From a virus: 28,069 bases of DNA. The notes beneath the pieces are model-generated. The model was not told the DNA's origin. It saw nothing but the letters and a program-made list of their open reading frames with translations, and made no database searches. Positions within the stretch are counted from its first letter, which is position 1; the number at the start of each line of letters is the position of its first letter. A program made the position numbers and the translations under genes. The DNA lies in the IMG/VR virus record IMGVR_UViG_3300022931_000017, positions 1-28,069 of that record. The stretch is one strand, 5' to 3'. Positions 9,439 through 27,625 of this stretch are shown here, piece by piece.

Positions 9439-9787
9439 TGAATATGATAGTTATGACTTCGGTTTTTCCGCAGTAAATGATGAAGAATATAAAGCAAAAA
9501 CAACAGAAGTAGAAAAGAAAATAGTTGAGGTTCAAGCAAAATCTCAAAGTTTTGCAAATTTAGAAAAGAAAATAGATTCCGCAATTAAAGAAATTAGTTA
9601 TAAAAAAGAATATTTAGAAGAAAAATATATAGTAGATATGGGCAAAGTTGAGCAATTAATTTTACCTCTTTTATATAATCTTATGAAAAATCCAGATAAA
9701 GATTATATTTATTGGCCAAAACGGGAAGAAATTATTACTAAACAAATAGAAAAAATTAAAGATGTGACTCAAGACTTATCTAAATAG
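9422..9787 (+). CDS. Coiled-coil protein with N-terminal DFGFSAV motif
   Basis: About 121 residues from ATG 9422 (an ATG at 9386 would add 12 residues inside the upstream gene and has no RBS). The N-terminus is short and acidic with YDFGFSAVNDEEY. A long coiled coil follows (about 20-70), then a C-terminal segment NLMKNPDKDYIYWPKREEII that I recall from small hypothetical proteins of T4-like phages. The same DFGFSAV motif opens the gene at 27651, suggesting a shared docking peptide. The stop is at 9785-9787, immediately before the tmRNA acceptor piece. Confidence 0.65.
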   Translation: MAIIPDEYDSYDFGFSAVNDEEYKAKTTEVEKKIVEVQAKSQSFANLEKKIDSAIKEISYKKEYLEEKYIVDMGKVEQLILPLLYNLMKNPDKDYIYWPKREEIITKQIEKIKDVTQDLSK

Positions 9788-9802
9788 ATGTAGTTGATGA
9801 TA

Positions 9803-9851
<49 letters not shown>

Positions 9852-9953
9852 ATGAGCCATATGAATGATAATCCTACTTTGTTATTGTGGGTTTTTATAA
9901 TATCGATTATGATGGGATTATATTTTGTTCTAGACTGGACTTTGATGACTTAA
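9852..9953 (+). CDS. 33-codon hydrophobic frame inside the tmRNA spacer
   Basis: The spacer removed from a permuted pre-tmRNA is here almost exactly filled by one frame. It starts at ATG directly after the CCA and stops at TAA four bases before the coding piece. The encoded peptide begins MSHMNDNPTLLLWVF and is a single predicted membrane helix with an acidic end. There is no Shine-Dalgarno (the upstream bases are the acceptor strand), so translation is doubtful and the frame may be chance. It is noted because spacers would not be expected to stay open. Confidence 0.25.
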   Translation: MSHMNDNPTLLLWVFIISIMMGLYFVLDWTLMT

Positions 9954-9957
9954 TGTT

Positions 9958-10130
9958 GGGGGTGTTCGGGAATTCGATTGAATGTGATTATGCAGAGGAG
10001 ACCATCTTGACAGATGTAAAATGTCATTTAACTTAATCGCAAACAATGACGATTATTTTTCCGCACAGGTAGCATTGGCCGCTTAGTGTTGGAGTGGGCT
10101 TATGATTGTGCCTTGAAACAGAAACAATCA
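9958..10130 (+). ncRNA. tmRNA coding piece (mRNA-like domain)
   Basis: Begins with the 5' acceptor strand GGGGGTG (9958-9964), then a D-loop-like GGGAATTCGA (compare GGAUUCGA in E. coli tmRNA) and the P2 5' strand (9978-9995). PK1 is an H-type pseudoknot: CATCT 10003-10007 pairs with AGATG 10012-10016, and the loop TGAC 10008-10011 pairs with GTCA 10023-10026. The resume codon GCA (10039) lies 12 bases after PK1, behind TAATC. After the tag stop, GATTGT (10104-10109) pairs with ACAATC (10124-10129), a closing hairpin. The 3' end is approximate. Confidence 0.85.
10039..10086 (+). other. tmRNA proteolysis-tag reading frame
   Basis: From resume codon GCA the frame reads ANNDDYFSAQVALAA and stops at TAG (10084-10086). 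Starting with Ala and ending in ALAA matches known degradation tags recognised by ClpXP and related proteases. At 15 encoded residues it is longer than the 10-residue E. coli tag but in the range seen in alphaproteobacteria. Confidence 0.82.
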
Positions 10131-10150
10131 ATTACACAAATTAAGGGAAT

Positions 10151-10516
10151 ATGATATCGTTTACAGAAAAAGCCGCTAATAAAGTATTGGGTATAATGCA
10201 AGATCAGAAAGTTTCTGAAGGTACAGTAGTGCGAGTAGGCGTTAAAGGTGGCGGGTGTTCAGGATTTACTTATACAGTAGATTTTGAAAGCCGTAAAGGG
10301 AAATTTGATTTAGAGTTTGAATCTTTTGGATTAAACATTTTAGTAGATAAAAAAAGTCATTTATATATTAGAGATACAGAAATTGATTGGTCGGATAATT
10401 TAAATGATCGTGGATTAAAATTTAACAATCCTTCAGCAAAAGGAACATGCGGCTGTAGGACATCATTCATGTATGAACGTATTGAGGAAAATGAACACAA
10501 ACCAAGTTGGATGTAA
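10151..10516 (+). CDS. iscA: A-type Fe-S cluster carrier (IscA/SufA/ErpA family)
   Basis: 121 residues, slightly longer than bacterial IscA (107). The three cluster-binding Cys are all present at 36 (GGGCSG), 100 and 102 (TCGC), almost the same numbering as E. coli IscA (35, 99, 101). The family accepts Fe-S clusters from IscU and delivers them to apo-enzymes in the cytoplasm. It is the first protein gene after the tmRNA and precedes a second carrier and iscU. A short C-terminal extension after the CGC motif overlaps the next gene. I cannot separate IscA, SufA and ErpA by eye. Confidence 0.9.
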   Translation: MISFTEKAANKVLGIMQDQKVSEGTVVRVGVKGGGCSGFTYTVDFESRKGKFDLEFESFGLNILVDKKSHLYIRDTEIDWSDNLNDRGLKFNNPSAKGTCGCRTSFMYERIEENEHKPSWM

Positions 10517-10895
10517 ACTTAAAATTTCTGAAAAGGCATCAAATGTTTTTAAAGAAATGATTGAAGACGAAAAAAAAGACATTGAAAATTCATACTTACG
10601 AGTAGGAGCAAATTCCGGCGGTTGTTCTGGGTGGAAATATAGTTTAGATTTTGAAAATAAAATTAAACCAGAAGATTTGGTTTTTATTGAAAACGGAATT
10701 AAATTAGTAATAGATGAGCATATACTTAATGATATAGTTGGTGATGTAGAAGTAGATTATAAAATAGGAAATTTGGTAGAACAGGGATTCATATTTAAAA
10801 GACTCAAATATGGACATGTTTGTGGTTGCGGAGAAAGTTTTACACCAATAAAGGATATTCCCGCAGATAGTAGACAGCACTTAGGATGGAAATAA
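10491..10895 (+). CDS. Second, diverged A-type Fe-S carrier
   Basis: 134 residues from ATG 10491, chosen because a purine-rich GAGGAAA precedes it; an ATG at 10473 would add 6 residues without an RBS. Cluster ligands are Cys45 (GGCSG), Cys111 and Cys113 (VCGCG). An additional Cys8 lies near the N-terminus. Sequence outside the motifs has drifted far from the first carrier, so this is an old duplication or separate acquisition, not a recent tandem copy. It overlaps the first carrier by 26 bases and ends one base before iscU. Confidence 0.85.
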   Translation: MNTNQVGCKLKISEKASNVFKEMIEDEKKDIENSYLRVGANSGGCSGWKYSLDFENKIKPEDLVFIENGIKLVIDEHILNDIVGDVEVDYKIGNLVEQGFIFKRLKYGHVCGCGESFTPIKDIPADSRQHLGWK

Positions 10896-10896
10896 T

Positions 10897-11286
10897 ATGG
10901 CATATTCAGATAAAGTAGTAGAGCATTTTGAAAGACCCAAAAATATTGGAAGTTTTGATAAAAATGATCCTAGTATAGGAACCGGTCTTGTGGGGGCACC
11001 GGAATGTGGTGACGTTATGAAATTACAAATAAAGGTGGATGATAATGATAAAATTGTTGATGCAAAATTTAAAACATTTGGATGTGGTTCTGCAATTGCA
11101 AGTTCTTCATTGGCAACCGAATGGGTTAAGGGTAGATCATTGGACGAAGCATTTGCGTTAGATAATACAGTCATTGTGCAAGAATTATCATTGCCCCCAG
11201 TAAAAATTCATTGTTCGGTTCTTGCAGAAGATGCAATTAAAGGAGCAATAGCAGATTATAAAAGTAAACAAGAAGCAACAACTTAG
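10897..11286 (+). CDS. iscU: Fe-S cluster scaffold protein IscU
   Basis: 129 residues, the same size as bacterial IscU (128). Cys37, Asp39, Cys63 and Cys106, the assembly ligands, stand at the same residue numbers as in E. coli IscU (APECGDVM, FGCGSA, IHCSVLA). The HscA-chaperone recognition motif LPPVK is intact at 99-103. IscU receives sulfur from IscS and iron to build [2Fe-2S] clusters. No IscS, HscA/HscB or ferredoxin gene lies in the window, so it would rely on host desulfurase and chaperones. It follows the two carriers closely, forming a cluster-building and delivery operon. Confidence 0.93.
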   Translation: MAYSDKVVEHFERPKNIGSFDKNDPSIGTGLVGAPECGDVMKLQIKVDDNDKIVDAKFKTFGCGSAIASSSLATEWVKGRSLDEAFALDNTVIVQELSLPPVKIHCSVLAEDAIKGAIADYKSKQEATT

Positions 11287-16096: not shown

Positions 16097-16876
16097 ATGA
16101 AGACATTTCAAAATTTTGCTTTGAGCGAGGGATTAGTACAGATACCCCCCAAGATATATAAACAATTCGAGACCACTTTATTTACATTTGCTTTTTCGCA
16201 TATGATAAATGAAATTGGAATGTATAGTTTTTCTACTACAATTAAAAAACTTGCAAGAAAACATGGAATAAAACATTTTATTAGACCCACCACAAAAACA
16301 GATGTAGTATATAAAAACCCCCATCAAGATATGCCTTATCCAGATTGGGACGTTGACCAAAATGATGATATTACATTATTCTTAATTTATGATAACAAAC
16401 CAGCAAGTTATAATTCTTATTATGACACAGAACACGTAAAAACAGGTAATCCCGCAATTACGTTTTATGTTTCCAATTACGTAAAAGAAGCACATAATGC
16501 AGATAATGAAAATGACATAATATTGAATGTTGAACAAATCCTCGTAAGAATGCAATCAGACTTGAAACATGAATTAATGCATTATGTTCAAGACGTTTTT
16601 CTTTCAAATAAATCAGAAAAACAAGTTCAAACAGGAAACCCCGAAAATGAAATAGAATATTATACTTCACAAAAAGAATTTGATCCTACAATAATGTCTG
16701 AAATAGGCGAGTTTTTAGCTATCAGAAGTGTCAATAGTTCATTACAAAAACATATAGACCAGTCTAAATTTTTTGGACTATTAAAAAAATATGCACCCAA
16801 TAAATATAAAATAGCAAGTAAAAAGTTTGTTGTAGGAGTACAACTTGCCTTAGATAGGAAGAATAAAAAACAATAA
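16097..16876 (+). CDS. HExxH zinc metalloprotease with capsid-targeting-like leader
   Basis: 259 residues. The zincin motif HELMH is at residues 158-162 (LKHELMHYVQD), inside a helix preceded by an edge beta strand. Candidate third ligands are the Glu residues in EIEYY or EIGEF further down, undecided. The N-terminus MKTFQNFALSEG matches the T4 capsid-targeting leader (MKTYQEFIAE), with a plausible prohead-protease site after LSE. If so, the protein would be packaged in the head and injected with the DNA. No signal peptide. Substrate unknown; a virion-morphogenesis protease or an injected effector are both possible. Confidence 0.65.
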   Translation: MKTFQNFALSEGLVQIPPKIYKQFETTLFTFAFSHMINEIGMYSFSTTIKKLARKHGIKHFIRPTTKTDVVYKNPHQDMPYPDWDVDQNDDITLFLIYDNKPASYNSYYDTEHVKTGNPAITFYVSNYVKEAHNADNENDIILNVEQILVRMQSDLKHELMHYVQDVFLSNKSEKQVQTGNPENEIEYYTSQKEFDPTIMSEIGEFLAIRSVNSSLQKHIDQSKFFGLLKKYAPNKYKIASKKFVVGVQLALDRKNKKQ

Positions 16877-17380: not shown

Positions 17381-17692
17381 ATGAATTTTAATATTAATAA
17401 AAATATTAATAGATACTGGAGAGACTGGGCGGCATTATTGTATCTATTTATTTGTTTGGTTGATTTTTTTATTGCTCCGTTAGTGTGGAATATTAAGATG
17501 GAAGAACATTGTAATGATAAAAATCGATATCCGCCAGGAGTGAAATGTGATGTGTCAAGATGGGTGCCCCTTACACTAGGAGCAGGAGCAATGTTTCATT
17601 TAAGCTTTGGGGCCATACTAAGTGCAACCGCATGGAAGAAAAAAGACGAATTGGAAATCCATCATCGTAATGGTGACACTTTTAGTTCTTAA
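17381..17692 (+). CDS. Holin-like membrane protein, copy 1
   Basis: 103 residues from ATG 17381 (an ATG at 17375 adds two). It has two membrane segments: WRDWAALLYLFICLVDFFIAPL and VPLTLGAGAMFHLSFGAIL, the latter followed by SATAWKKK. A Cys-containing loop lies between them. The pattern W+.+AALVYL.IC..DF...P and W.PLTL..G.MFH.SFGAILG.TAW is one I recall as holin-like in marine phages. A clear paralogue lies at 23906-24268. Confidence 0.65.
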   Translation: MNFNINKNINRYWRDWAALLYLFICLVDFFIAPLVWNIKMEEHCNDKNRYPPGVKCDVSRWVPLTLGAGAMFHLSFGAILSATAWKKKDELEIHHRNGDTFSS

Positions 17693-17889
17693 TGGACATT
17701 TAAAGTTTTTCTACGAATCAGCAAAAAGGTATTCTCAAGTTTTATCTGGTGGACATCCTCGCATTGGCAGGTAGTTCACATTAACGATCCCACTGCCATG
17801 TCTCCTCATTATCGGTATGTTCACACAGAACTTTTCATAAACAATCGAACTTTAGATTGAGAACTAAATCATGATACGTAAAAACAATA
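17693..17889 (+). other. Intergenic region with candidate structured RNA
   Basis: About 197 bases without a convincing gene, locally less AT-rich. GGACAT 17751-17756 can pair with ATGTCT 17798-17803, and inside it GGCAG 17766-17770 with CTGCC 17793-17797, giving a stacked two-helix hairpin. No tRNA arms or T-run terminator fit. Could be a small RNA or a leader of the 17890 gene. Confidence 0.35.
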
Positions 17890-18357: not shown

Positions 18358-18819
18358 ATGAAAATAGGAAGAAAACTTTTAAAATGGTGGTTAATATTTT
18401 GTTTAATACTTTTGGGTTTTGGAACAACATATTATTATAATTTACATCCAATTCTATATTATGCAGATGCAACTAAACTTAGTTTTTTGATTATTATCAT
18501 TTTTGTGAGTACTTCCCTTTGGATTGGAAGAAAAACTTATGATTTAGAAAAAACTTCAATCGTAGATAAAACAATTGAAGTTGGATGGTTTATTGCCGAA
18601 GCGTGTCTTGTACTTGGAATGATCGGTACTGTTACAGGGTTTCTTTTAATGTTAGGTACAGCTTTTGCTAATATTGATGTTACTAATTCGGTTACACTTC
18701 AACAAGCTCTCTCTGACATGGCAATTGGAATGAGTACTGCACTTTGGACTACTCTCACGGGTTTAGTTTGTTCTTTGATACTAAAAGTTCAATTAATAAA
18801 TTTTGAATCGGGTAATTAA
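18358..18819 (+). CDS. MotA/TolQ/ExbB-like proton-channel protein
   Basis: 153 residues with four membrane helices (about 8-26, 41-57, 78-98 and 118-144). The diagnostic block is in helices 3 and 4: LGMIGTVTGFLLML, then DMAIGMSTALWTTLTGLVCSLIL, matching the family pattern LGLLGTVxG...GIxxALxTTxxGL. Members form ion-driven stators with a partner carrying a conserved Asp in a single helix (MotB, TolR, ExbD). The following gene encodes such a protein and overlaps by one base. The large cytoplasmic loop of MotA is missing, so the size is near the minimum for the family. A phage copy is unusual. Confidence 0.75.
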   Translation: MKIGRKLLKWWLIFCLILLGFGTTYYYNLHPILYYADATKLSFLIIIIFVSTSLWIGRKTYDLEKTSIVDKTIEVGWFIAEACLVLGMIGTVTGFLLMLGTAFANIDVTNSVTLQQALSDMAIGMSTALWTTLTGLVCSLILKVQLINFESGN

Positions 18820-19532
18820 TGGACAGCAATTCTAAATATAAATCATCGGTCGGGTTCACCGATATGTTATTCAACATTTTGGTAGGATTTGCTTTTTTGT
18901 TTATGATAGCCTTTTTATTGATTAAACCCGAAGCCAAGAAAGAAGATTTTGAACGAAAAGCAGAGTTCATTATCATCATGGAATGGAACCACGATGCACC
19001 TGACGATATTGATCTTTATGTAGAAGATCCATTGGGAATGCGGGTTTCTTTCAGAAGAACGGTAGGCAATTTCATGCACCTCGACAAAGATGATTTGGGC
19101 AACAGAAACGATCAAATTGTTGTAGGTGGTGTCACATCATCGGTTGCACTCAATAGAGAAGTGGTGACTATCAGAGGAATCACTAAAGGGGAATATATAG
19201 TGAACGCACATTATTATTCGAAGGGGAAGTCTTCTACAATGATTTTACCCAATAGCGGAAAACAACCCGCTATTCAAAAGAAAAAATTCACACCAAAGAA
19301 ATCACTTATGGTTAGAATAGAAGTACATAAGGTCAACCCATATCGGTTGATTTGGGAAGGTGAGAAGAAGTTTTTCAAAAAGGGTCAAGAGGAAACATTT
19401 GTTCGATTTTCAATAGACCAAGACGGTAGATTTATTTCTCCTGTAACATTTGAAAAGAAAAAGTTTGTCTCACCTCTTGGTTCTATGGGTAATTTCTATG
19501 GAAACAGTAGAGAAGAACGGGATTCACCATGA
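18819..19532 (+). CDS. ExbD/TolR/MotB-like partner with large periplasmic domain
   Basis: 237 residues. A short cytoplasmic N-terminus precedes one membrane helix (about 13-35) with an Asp at its cytoplasmic end: GFTDMLFNILVGFAFLFMIA. This is the arrangement of the proton-binding Asp in ExbD, TolR and MotB. The periplasmic part (about 40-237) contains WNHDAPDDIDLYVEDPLGMRV, a beta-sandwich-like segment, and later a basic strand-rich region. There is no OmpA-like peptidoglycan-binding motif. It overlaps the MotA-like gene by one base and the third gene by four, suggesting a complex. Confidence 0.65.
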   Translation: MDSNSKYKSSVGFTDMLFNILVGFAFLFMIAFLLIKPEAKKEDFERKAEFIIIMEWNHDAPDDIDLYVEDPLGMRVSFRRTVGNFMHLDKDDLGNRNDQIVVGGVTSSVALNREVVTIRGITKGEYIVNAHYYSKGKSSTMILPNSGKQPAIQKKKFTPKKSLMVRIEVHKVNPYRLIWEGEKKFFKKGQEETFVRFSIDQDGRFISPVTFEKKKFVSPLGSMGNFYGNSREERDSP

Positions 19533-23905: not shown

Positions 23906-24268
23906 ATGAATATAAACAAAACCATCAATGAATTTTGGCGTGATTGGGCAGCTCTAGTATATCTTTGGATTTGTTTGAGTGACTTCTTTATAGGGCCAGT
24001 TGTTTGGAATATGCAGATGGACTCATACTGTAATATGATGGTGTCTAAGGGATTAGTTTGTGATGCAACCCGCTGGGTGCCATTGACTCTTGCAGGAGGT
24101 GCAATGTTTCATTTATCATTTGGGGCTATTTTAGGTGCGACCGCTTGGAAGAAGGGTGATAAAGATGAAAATCAAGATAAAGAAATTGGAGAACTTCATG
24201 CAGACCTTGAAGCACTTAAAGAAACTATCAAGACACACATTGTTAGTGGGGATCATTCTACTACTTAG
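23906..24268 (+). CDS. Holin-like membrane protein, copy 2
   Basis: 120 residues, paralogue of the protein at 17381: both read F/YWRDWAAL.YL.ICL.DFFI.P.VWN.+M, then C, then RWVPLTL..GAMFHLSFGAIL.ATAWKK. This copy carries an extra C-terminal charged helix (DEN QDKEIGELHADLEALKE) that overlaps the lipase gene. Two copies of a small membrane protein suggest either two lysis timers or one lysis and one antagonist form. Confidence 0.65.
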   Translation: MNINKTINEFWRDWAALVYLWICLSDFFIGPVVWNMQMDSYCNMMVSKGLVCDATRWVPLTLAGGAMFHLSFGAILGATAWKKGDKDENQDKEIGELHADLEALKETIKTHIVSGDHSTT

Positions 24269-24965
24269 TGGATGTGCAAAGAACATAGTAGACAAAAATA
24301 ATGATTTGGGTAGTGGTGATAAATCAACTCTACCAGTTACAATAGAATCACTCATTGAACACGCAGAGTATTCTGCTGCAATTTATGAGAATGGTTCAAC
24401 TGATGAGATTGTATTTGAGGTAAAACAGAATAATGGTATTACGATTATCACTGTTAGGGGCACTGCAAACGAGAATAATGTTCTTGCTGATTTGGATGCA
24501 AGACTGATAAAAGATGACGTATTGGGAATATATCTACATAAAGGATTTAAAGATGCGTCAACTTATGTTATGCAATCCATAGACAATACTTTTGTAAACA
24601 ATGTAAAACTCTACACACTAGAACATACCGTTTATATCACAGGCCACAGTTTAGGCGGCGCGATAGCACAAATAGTAGGTATGTGGTTACACAAAAGGGG
24701 TCACAATGTTCAAGTTTTTTCTTACGGATCACCAAAAGTCAGTAATGAAGTTCTTGTTTCAGGACAACCCGTACATTGGCGCGTATCTAATCCTGTCGAT
24801 CCTGTGCCTTTTACTCCTATTGTGCCTTATGCTCATACAGGCTTATTCATAGACCCTAGAACTGGAGCATGGGGTCCAGATAATGACAATGGATTGATAA
24901 GTAAAACCGATGGATTGGACCATGCGATTGCGAAATATGTAGAAAAGTTGAAAGCATTAAAGTAA
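24198..24965 (+). CDS. Class 3 lipase as a lipoprotein
   Basis: 255 residues from ATG 24198, chosen because GGAG stands 6 bases upstream and the signal peptide then begins correctly. A basic N-terminus and hydrophobic core end in LLSGC (lipobox, Cys26 lipidated). The alpha/beta-hydrolase triad is visible: Ser151 in GHSLGGA, Asp201 in NPVDPVPFTP, His242 near the end (LDHAIAKY). Class 3 lipases cleave acylglycerols or phospholipids. Anchored to the envelope, it could attack or remodel host membranes, aid lysis, or free fatty acids. A phage copy with a host-type lipobox is unusual. Confidence 0.8.
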   Translation: MQTLKHLKKLSRHTLLVGIILLLSGCAKNIVDKNNDLGSGDKSTLPVTIESLIEHAEYSAAIYENGSTDEIVFEVKQNNGITIITVRGTANENNVLADLDARLIKDDVLGIYLHKGFKDASTYVMQSIDNTFVNNVKLYTLEHTVYITGHSLGGAIAQIVGMWLHKRGHNVQVFSYGSPKVSNEVLVSGQPVHWRVSNPVDPVPFTPIVPYAHTGLFIDPRTGAWGPDNDNGLISKTDGLDHAIAKYVEKLKALK

Positions 24966-25053: not shown

Positions 25054-25401
25054 ATGAATGAATTATTTAATACTGCAGAATGGATAATGTTAGGATTAGT
25101 CCTATTCTCTTCATTCTGGATATTTCTATTTAATTATAGACAAGATCACAAAGAAAAGTATAATGGTCATTGGCCGTTAATTGCACTTGATCTGCTTATT
25201 AATATGGGAATGTCTGTAACTGGATACATGTTAATTTTAATTGTATTCACTAATGTTGACCAACTTCAACCCTATAAAGATTATCACTTTCCTATTGGAT
25301 ATCTTTTTGGACTCACTTCTAATGTGAGTATTCCAATTGTTCTTAAGTGGTTTGGTCAACAGATTACCAAAAAATTAAATGAAGTGGGGAAGGGGAAATA
25401 G
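25054..25401 (+). CDS. Membrane protein with three TM helices
   Basis: 115 residues. Hydrophobic segments lie at about 8-28 (EWIMLGLVLFSSFWIFLFNY), 44-68 (LIALDLLINMGMSVTGYMLILIVF) and 82-98. No channel or enzyme motif is seen; the family is not recognised. It starts the unit that also encodes the CxxCH protein, the solute-binding protein and the PycTM-like protein, and the next gene starts 3 bases after its stop, so it may be a membrane partner of one of them. Confidence 0.55.
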   Translation: MNELFNTAEWIMLGLVLFSSFWIFLFNYRQDHKEKYNGHWPLIALDLLINMGMSVTGYMLILIVFTNVDQLQPYKDYHFPIGYLFGLTSNVSIPIVLKWFGQQITKKLNEVGKGK

Positions 25402-25404
25402 ATT

Positions 25405-25875
25405 ATGGCTGAGCAAGAAAAACAACAAGCAAATGGAAAAGACCAAAAAATACTACAACATGATATTGAAGAAATAGATAAAAAGGTTGAAGAAGTTCAA
25501 GTATTAGAAAATATGATTAAAGACCAAACAGTTGCTAGTAAATCTTTCATCTATGTTATTATCGCACTTCTTGTATATTTAATCTTTATGGTTATACCTG
25601 ACATAGATAAAAAAGTTACATTTATGGAAAAGGATCTTAATTCCATTCTAGTACAGTCAGAACGATACAAAAAATCAACCAGAGTATTTGCGAAAGATAA
25701 TCAATGTGCAGAGTGTCATCTAAGTCCCGATTATCTACTCCACAACCTCTTAAAGAAATATCCAAGTTTTTCTGATGTTAAATCTTTCATGTCGGTTGGA
25801 CATCAACGATATTATACTATGGCGACACCAATGCCAGATGCTGAATTATTAGAAGTATATCGGGCGTTACAATGA
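25405..25875 (+). CDS. Membrane-anchored cytochrome c-like protein
   Basis: 156 residues. An acidic coiled-coil N-terminus (about 8-40) is followed by one membrane helix (about 46-66, SFIYVIIALLVYLIFMVI), a second short coiled coil, and a C-terminal domain with CAECH at 101-105 (heme c motif CxxCH). TPMPD with Met143 is a possible axial ligand, and the end ELLEVYRALQ is a typical cytochrome terminal helix. If heme is attached, the domain is periplasmic and the N-terminus cytoplasmic. One CxxCH alone can also bind zinc, so heme attachment is not certain. ATGA overlap with the solute-binding gene. Confidence 0.6.
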   Translation: MAEQEKQQANGKDQKILQHDIEEIDKKVEEVQVLENMIKDQTVASKSFIYVIIALLVYLIFMVIPDIDKKVTFMEKDLNSILVQSERYKKSTRVFAKDNQCAECHLSPDYLLHNLLKKYPSFSDVKSFMSVGHQRYYTMATPMPDAELLEVYRALQ

Positions 25876-26966
25876 TATTCATGGGAAAAGCTTTTGCTTG
25901 TTTGGTATGGTTGTTTTGGATAATGGTTGTAGATAATACAGCTATTGGTCAGGAGGACAATACTACCATCACGCTAGAATACAATCCTTCCTACAGTAGT
26001 ACATTTAATAGAGTGATGAAAAGAGGAGTTGTTATTTGTGGAACTAATGATGAGTTTCCAGGCTTCTCACAGGAGACATGGAGTAATGAATATGGTACAA
26101 AATGGATAGGGTTTGATGTTGATATGTGTCGTGTTGTTGCAACTGCCTTGTTTGGTGATGCAACTGCTATAGAATTCGTTGTAGTTAATGGTAAAACACG
26201 ATTTGAATTTTTGATAGATGGTACTATTGACATCCTTTCAGCCGCAACAACCTATACATTCACTAGAAACGTACTCAAAAAACTTGAGTTTGCGCCCACC
26301 ACATACTATGATGGTCAAGGATTTATTGTAAGAAAAACACTTGGTGTATCTTCAGCAAAACAATTAGAAGGGGCAAAGATTTGTTTTAGTTCTACTGGAA
26401 CTGGTGCAAAGAACATTGCAGACTTCTTTGCGACTCATGGCATAAATTACATTCCTGTTCCTGTACCACCAGACAAAGAAGCAAAACAAATGTACATTGA
26501 TGGTGGATGTGATATGTACGGAACGGACAGATCTGGCCTAGCATCTAATAGATTAGGTTTCAAAGATCCCAATAGACACATGATACTTCCAGAGATAATA
26601 TCCAAAGAACCTCTAGGACCAGTCGTTAGATATGGGGATCAACAATGGTCTGACATAGTAAGATGGTCAATATATGTTTTGTTTATTGCAGAAGAGATGG
26701 GTATCAACTCAAAAAACATTGACACTTTCAAGAACAATATAGATCCCAACATCCAAAGATTTATGGGTGAGAAGAATGGTTTAGATCATCCTAATCTTGG
26801 TGCAAAATTGGGGTTGCCTGCTACTTGGTCGTATGATATAATAAAACAAGTTGGTAACTATAAAGAAATATTTGACCGTAATATCACAAAGAAGTTAGGA
26901 CTAAAACGAGGTCTTAATAAATTATACAATAAAGGTGGACTATTGTATGCACCGCCCTTGAAGTAA
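25872..26966 (+). CDS. aapJ: Periplasmic amino-acid-binding protein, AapJ-like
   Basis: 364 residues, close to bacterial AapJ (about 340). An N-terminal signal peptide (about 1-26) ends TAIGQ. Family-3 solute-binding motifs are present: GVVICGTNDEFPGFS, WIGFDVDMCRVVATALFGD, KTRFEFLIDGTIDILSAATTYT, and DGGCDMYGTDRSGLAS. The C-terminus GLNKLYNKGGLLYAPP is the hallmark of the general L-amino-acid-binding subfamily. It would feed an ABC transporter (host AapQMP, not in the window). A complete phage copy suggests maintaining amino-acid uptake during infection, possible in a host such as SAR11. Overlaps both neighbours. Confidence 0.85.
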   Translation: MIFMGKAFACLVWLFWIMVVDNTAIGQEDNTTITLEYNPSYSSTFNRVMKRGVVICGTNDEFPGFSQETWSNEYGTKWIGFDVDMCRVVATALFGDATAIEFVVVNGKTRFEFLIDGTIDILSAATTYTFTRNVLKKLEFAPTTYYDGQGFIVRKTLGVSSAKQLEGAKICFSSTGTGAKNIADFFATHGINYIPVPVPPDKEAKQMYIDGGCDMYGTDRSGLASNRLGFKDPNRHMILPEIISKEPLGPVVRYGDQQWSDIVRWSIYVLFIAEEMGINSKNIDTFKNNIDPNIQRFMGEKNGLDHPNLGAKLGLPATWSYDIIKQVGNYKEIFDRNITKKLGLKRGLNKLYNKGGLLYAPPLK

Positions 26967-27625
26967 TGGGTAAGAATATATTCAATAACGTTCCAGAAGA
27001 TAGAACCGCAGTAGATAACATTTTCAGATTGAATGTTACCAATCAGATGCGGTTGAATATAATGGCTGATCAAAAGGCCAACATAATGATTACAGTTTCA
27101 GCGATTGTGTTTTCAGTTACAGTTGCAGAATTAGACAATCCTGTAATGAAATATCCATTGATGTTCTTTGCGGTTTGCTGTATTTTATCATTATTGTGTG
27201 CGATAGTAGCGATAATACCAAACACCAACTATCCAAAAGATGAAGATGGAAATTTAGATAGAACATCACCGCATTTCAAACCACTTTATTTTGGTCATTT
27301 TTCTCATATGGATGTGGAAGAATATAAAGAAAATTATGCTGATACGCTACGAACCGATGACACAATATATGATGCATTAGCTAATGAAATGTATACTAGC
27401 GGTAAGACTCTCGCACTTGTTAAGTATAGGTGGATACGTTGGTCTTATTCAGCATTCCTTGTTGGTATGTTTGGTGCAATGGTGATATTCCTTTTTGAAT
27501 TACCTATCTTTACTGGTGTATTTGAAGTAGTTGATAATCAGTTTGGTTGGAATGGAATTGTTTGGCAGAATTTTAGAGAAGGATTTTGTCAATTAAGTGT
27601 GGTATGTAGAGATAGTAATTTATAA
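26966..27625 (+). CDS. Pycsar-effector-like membrane protein (DUF5706/PycTM type)
   Basis: 219 residues. The N-terminal soluble part leads into RLNIMADQKANIMITVSAIVFSVTVAEL, the family's signature with an Asp-Gln-Lys-Ala-Asn turn before TM1. Two membrane helices follow (about 40-55 and 65-86, FAVCCILSLLCAIVAIIP), then a soluble domain (HFSHMDVEEYKENYADTLRTDD) and a third helix after LALVKYRWIRWSYSAFLVGM. In Pycsar defence a TM effector of this family damages the inner membrane when cCMP/cUMP binds. No cyclase lies next to it. Start overlaps the binding-protein stop by one base. Confidence 0.7.
   Translation: MGKNIFNNVPEDRTAVDNIFRLNVTNQMRLNIMADQKANIMITVSAIVFSVTVAELDNPVMKYPLMFFAVCCILSLLCAIVAIIPNTNYPKDEDGNLDRTSPHFKPLYFGHFSHMDVEEYKENYADTLRTDDTIYDALANEMYTSGKTLALVKYRWIRWSYSAFLVGMFGAMVIFLFELPIFTGVFEVVDNQFGWNGIVWQNFREGFCQLSVVCRDSNL

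Follow-up and report, generated by a model that had tools for sequence, protein, structure and literature searches.

The class 3 lipases of fungi such as Thermomyces lanuginosus and Rhizomucor miehei are alpha/beta-hydrolases with a GHSLGG elbow, an RG[ST] motif, an Asp, and a C-terminal His. Lipase_3 proteins also occur in eukaryotic viruses and in cyanophages, where the phrog_21992 lipases (PSSM2_200 of P-SSM2 and those of Cylindrospermopsis phages) are ~200 aa long and are read without a signal peptide, a lipobox, or an overlapping membrane gene. LysB of mycobacteriophages is a serine esterase of the alpha/beta-hydrolase type that acts at lysis and has the outer lipid barrier as its target (PMC6116005). 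In the two-component spanins (Rz/Rz1), whose target is also the envelope, a lipoprotein gene overlaps an inner-membrane protein gene. Marine T4-like phages are abundant, and their lysis systems are poorly defined: for Melnitz, the authors had to invoke curli pores in place of holins (PMC9004378).

We analyzed a 28-kb IMG/VR record (28,069 nt, GC 33%; the window) that encodes a predicted lipid-anchored class 3 lipase next to a small membrane protein (Table 1). The lipase shares the features listed above with the fungal enzymes, from which it differs in sequence (~20% identity), in its predicted lipid anchor, and in being phage-borne. With the phrog_21992 proteins it shares a phage Lipase_3-type domain (~30% identity over half). 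LysB, in contrast, is not a Lipase_3 lipoprotein, lies in a lysis cassette, and targets mycolyl-arabinogalactan. An o-spanin is tiny and lacks any enzyme domain, whereas the 255-aa window protein includes a complete lipase domain; the spanin partner has one TM helix and a periplasmic coiled coil, whereas the partner here has two TM helices. We found no description of the two-gene module in the literature searched, which lay mostly outside subscription papers and is weak evidence of novelty. The fold and the family are already known; what may be new is the conserved pair, which recurs across at least 80 viral contigs of marine T4-like phages. With its active site intact, the predicted lipid-anchored lipase and its small membrane partner form a concrete candidate for envelope breakdown, and enzymatic lipid release by a phage would affect what viral lysis puts into seawater.

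Table 1. Positions of the lipase module and of other features in the window.
Feature	Position	Strand	Remarks
Phage-encoded permuted (two-piece) tmRNA	9759–10177	+	Rfam RF04321, 88.7 bits; tag ANNDDYFSAQVALAA
Row of three genes: two for A-type Fe-S carrier-like proteins, one for an IscU-like scaffold	10151–11286	+	by inspection; also in relatives
Second intact membrane-protein gene copy	17381–17692	+	62% identical
Lipase relic of second module	17622–17860	+	signal-peptide end joined to C-terminal third, then frameshift
MotA/TolQ/ExbB-like protein, then TolR/ExbD-like protein	18358–19532	+	weak ZorA similarity
Two-helix small membrane protein, 120 aa, conserved partner	23906–24268	+	overlaps lipase gene by 71 nt
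Alternative lipase N-terminal extension	24135–24197	+	GTG 24135 aligns with relatives' GTG start
Predicted lipoprotein class 3 lipase, 255 aa	24198–24965	+	lipobox Cys26, Ser151, Asp201, His242, oxyanion RGT87–89
Small multi-TM protein, membrane-anchored CXXCH (c-type heme-like) protein, AapJ-like solute-binding protein	25054–26966	+	
PycTM-domain protein	26966–27625	+	Pfam E 2e-22; PADLOC E 6e-19

The lipase gene is an uninterrupted ORF with an ATG start and a GGAG 6 nt upstream. Its product opens with an n-region (KHLKKLSRH) and a hydrophobic stretch, followed by a lipobox, L-S-G-C26 (residues 23–26), recognized with the bacterial lipoprotein pattern [LVI][ASTVI][GAS]C. Residues 84–208 match Pfam Lipase_3 (PF01764) at 74.4 bits (cut-off 22, E 1.1e-20), and phrog_21992 (esterase/lipase) was matched at E 2.6e-16. 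The putative catalytic triad consists of Ser151 in GHSLGG, Asp201 in NPVDP, and His242 in LDHAIAKY, with R87-G88-T89 as the oxyanion motif. The top PDB match by sequence was Thermomyces lanuginosus lipase (E 2.5e-14), with GHSLGG and RG[ST] aligned. Built with AlphaFold2 on 72 viral sequences, a structure model (mean pLDDT 78, pTM 0.77; low quality in the signal region and in loop 232–239) retrieved fungal class 3 lipases in a fold search, the best being a partial match to 4tgl (E 3.9e-9, TM ~0.54). No LysB/cutinase-like family was reached among profiles, where Lipase_3 was the sole family over its cut-off, and in the fold search cutinases matched weakly. The preliminary description had read the gene as a lipidated class 3 lipase of a phage, with a canonical lipobox and a full Ser-Asp-His triad; the Lipase_3 score, the lipobox, and the triad support this well at the sequence level, where a real class 3 lipase gene is confirmed.

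Scans of viral contigs gave 18 close loci and then 80 loci (474 candidates overall). Ser151, Gly149, His150, and R87-G88-T89 were identical in 74 of 74 aligned sequences, and Asp201 and His242 were present in all but one, a truncated copy without the C-terminal part. Mutation of the triad in homologues had been named as the finding that would speak against the lipase; instead, the triad was unmutated in 72–74 viral homologues, which rules out a decayed active site. When the pattern was relaxed slightly, 80 of the 81 non-redundant copies showed a lipobox-like motif. Between the window lipase and its nearest orthologues dN/dS was 0.18–0.32, and the median over 1575 comparable pairs was 0.26, indicating that the lipase is under purifying selection. 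Because the residues and the lipobox are kept and dN/dS is low, we take the lipase to be a working gene and not a product of chance; together with the family score, this rules out a chance ORF. The single copy without a lipobox (L069) has a signal segment without the Cys and is the first of two tandem lipases. Loci L071–L076 share this arrangement of tandem lipases behind one membrane gene, with a second lipase that keeps its lipobox (read in L076). The lipobox-less first lipase of these loci would be secreted rather than anchored. A cellular origin was set aside: a genome collection gave a single fragment, which sits at one end of a MAG contig and probably stems from a phage whose sequence was binned along with it. 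Plasmid lipases were 26–31% identical to the phage lipase and did not indicate a donor.

The partner protein has two hydrophobic segments and two long helices, and its structure model (pTM 0.37) was insufficient for a fold search. Its gene and the lipase gene are read in different frames. Searched from the partner side, the lipase was directly next in 71 of the best 80 loci, a sample biased toward close homologues; in eight of the nine other loci there is ample DNA and no lipase in it. The overlap measured 62–74 nt (mode 68) in 66 of 68 loci with a readable start. Synteny with the membrane gene in relatives, which the preliminary description had suggested as a check, is thereby strongly confirmed, and the overlap is a family trait of the pair. 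The other two readable loci, both of the window's own type, have a 134-nt overlap counted from the start homologous to GTG 24135. In relatives, the lipase starts at a GTG within the FGAIL[GS]ATAW region of the partner. The window lipase carries an N-terminal insertion of ~21 codons (~63 nt) inside the overlap, and with a start at ATG 24198 the overlap is back at its usual length; therefore, both starts are possible. We set aside the conservation of the GTG start and of GGAG as evidence. It is partly circular, since FGAIL of the partner uses the same bases and the starts were selected.

The pair stays together while its surroundings change among terminase, Fe-S, and solute-binding-protein contexts. 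Neighbors of the 80–81 non-redundant pairs included PycTM (26), a solute-binding protein (24), small terminase (17), large terminase (13), and neck protein (13), as well as Fe-S carriers. One locus (L063) has two lipase/membrane-protein pairs, and the window has a second, partly decayed module. In its lipase relic, LNGH replaces the lipobox with loss of the Cys, the signal-peptide end is joined to the QVLSGG region, the nucleophile region is deleted, and the C-terminal third lies in another frame; in a search of seven short frames, the two parts gave profile E-values of 1.2e-12 and 7.3e-6. The membrane gene beside this dead lipase is intact, and the partner can therefore outlive its lipase. 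Distance matrices of lipase and partner correlated weakly (r 0.31), versus r 0.82 (n=18) for lipase and solute-binding protein.

The window comes from an uncultured marine phage of the T4-like type. Its T4-type primase is 46–48% identical to those of cyanophages, and it has a tail-fiber-like gene and, by inspection, ThyX-like and ribonucleotide-reductase-like genes. A 150.8-kb relative (G001) encodes a T4 portal, neck, sheath stabilizer, tail tube, gp32, and UvsY, and its terminase is closest to those of P-TIM68 and the OM43 phage Melnitz (59%). In Melnitz and P-TIM68 themselves (phages of OM43/SAR11 and cyanobacteria), the searches found neither lipase nor membrane-gene relatives. The low GC content (33%) and the two-piece tmRNA would fit a streamlined alphaproteobacterium as host.

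The expected destination of the lipase depends on the residues behind the lipobox cysteine. Position +2 was Asp in none of 80 copies, which by the E. coli rule predicts the outer membrane. Lys occupied +3 in 57 of 80 copies and Ser +4 in 22; in Pseudomonas, Lys+3 and Ser+4 have been proposed to hold lipoproteins back in the inner membrane; the authors of PMC6469965 question this rule. Anchoring to the outer membrane is thus plausible, depending on the host.

Our preferred reading, to which we give slightly less than an even chance, is that a Sec-exported, lipid-anchored lipase or phospholipase and its two-helix partner attack envelope lipids late in infection, probably for lysis. The first gene would yield a two-helix inner-membrane protein, and the lipase, whose gene begins inside the end of the first, would be co-translated with it. 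The lipase precursor would be exported by Sec, cleaved by signal peptidase II, and acylated at Cys26, so that its class 3 lipase domain would sit in the periplasm with a lipid anchor in the outer (or inner) membrane. There, its triad would hydrolyze acyl esters in envelope lipids. Made late, the lipase would most likely weaken these lipids and so let the cell open at lysis, with the membrane protein as a permeabilizer or a brake.

Points for such a lysis module are the export signal, the membrane partner, the conserved active site and overlap, and the late-region position in the 150.8-kb relative, where the pair sits between neck/small-terminase and large-terminase/sheath/tube genes. Against it stand the weak distance correlation, the phages in which the partner has no lipase, the window's own second partner copy beside a dead lipase, and mass-spectrometry data that list a partner homologue in PA5oct among the virion proteins. 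In addition, a lipase whose export follows directly on its synthesis would, unless held in check, act ahead of lysis. The preliminary description had the lipase overlap a holin-like gene, suggesting lysis. The overlap stands; the holin likeness comes down to the two hydrophobic helices, by which the partner resembles holins as small proteins with at least one TM helix, and about ten other small membrane proteins lie in the window alone. The partner had no Pfam or PHROG holin match, and the best holin-family match of its Atu_ph07 homologue was weak (E 0.023–0.087). The label of holin is accordingly weak, and we do not file the partner as one.

A SleB-type hydrolase, the sole endolysin candidate found, was in none of the 80 pair loci and lies ~96 kb from the pair in the 150.8-kb relative. 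The absence of an adjacent endolysin is weak counter-evidence because T4-like phages scatter their lysis genes. A regex search of the same relative gave no convincing T4-type lysozyme or M15 peptidase; Pfam later found the SleB-type hydrolase, whose closest relatives are likewise among Melnitz/P-TIM68-type phages. Leaving aside the lipase itself and a few short frames on the minus strand, the lipobox screen of this relative returned one further plausible lipoprotein and no obvious spanin pair, which also speaks for the lysis reading. Matches to the T4-type late promoter TATAAATA near the genes (6 versus 5.7 expected) were uninformative. A 3-TM protein weakly similar to holins (E 0.0059) occurs together with an N-TM coiled-coil protein in 13 of the 80 pair loci, mostly directly upstream, possibly as a lysis-like neighborhood. 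With points on both sides, lysis is our first choice of role, though an unproven one, ahead of nutrient scavenging and superinfection exclusion. More doubtful is the extension that, in widespread marine T4-like phages of Gram-negative hosts, the lipid-anchored lipase, with its overlapping two-helix membrane protein, takes the place of spanins through digestion of envelope lipids as a third-step lysis enzyme, the Gram-negative counterpart of mycobacteriophage LysB.

The association with solute-binding proteins bears on a different reading, that of an auxiliary metabolic gene, which we consider unlikely. Here, a periplasmic lipase would split host or scavenged lipids and supply the infected cell with fatty acids, glycerol, or phosphate, acting with the neighboring AapJ-like amino-acid-binding and cytochrome-like proteins. 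A solute-binding protein does lie within a few kb in the 24 loci counted above, with distances that follow those of the lipase, and another phage lipase, S-CREM1 ORF157, was interpreted as metabolic (PMC9964418). However, no solute-binding protein is present in the stretch seen in most pair loci, and the partner that recurs throughout, a small membrane protein, is neither a transporter nor the product of a lipid-metabolism gene. Cyanophage-type lipases, moreover, have no signal peptide, whereas the window lipase is predicted to be anchored.

Less probable again is superinfection exclusion or envelope remodeling, in which the lipoprotein and the membrane protein would change the envelope and block injection by a second phage. 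Among the classic exclusion factors of phages are both lipoproteins and two-helix membrane proteins (T5 Llp, T4 Imm), and the pair behaves as a movable cassette, at times duplicated (L063 and the window) and near genes such as PycTM. Yet the known exclusion lipoproteins block receptors and are not known to carry an enzyme, and the lipase active site is strictly retained. Least probable of all is that the two are mere neighbors, the lipase a lipoprotein acting alone and the partner a membrane or virion-associated protein without relation to it, held together by translational coupling and cassette exchange: the weak distance correlation, the nine lipase-less loci, and the PA5oct virion homologue would allow it, but the overlap length is almost constant and the pair is retained in widely different contexts.

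Several other features of the window were recorded. The block downstream of the lipase, including its CXXCH, is retained in two relatives (L013, L175). The PycTM-domain protein belongs to a Pycsar effector family; no cyclase gene was noticed nearby, and the protein could be a counter-defense factor or an unrelated membrane protein. A TolQ-like gene similar to that of the window lies near the lipase-less membrane gene in two loci (L118, L153). Five plus-strand proteins, at 16097, 20020, 20590, 20874, and 23630, begin with MKTF[KQ][EN][YHF], and the set includes a HAD-like hydrolase and a HEXXH protein. These starts resemble the capsid-targeting N-termini of T4. The proteins are possibly packaged and injected; the role of the T4 sequence (CTS) is described in PMC9026906.
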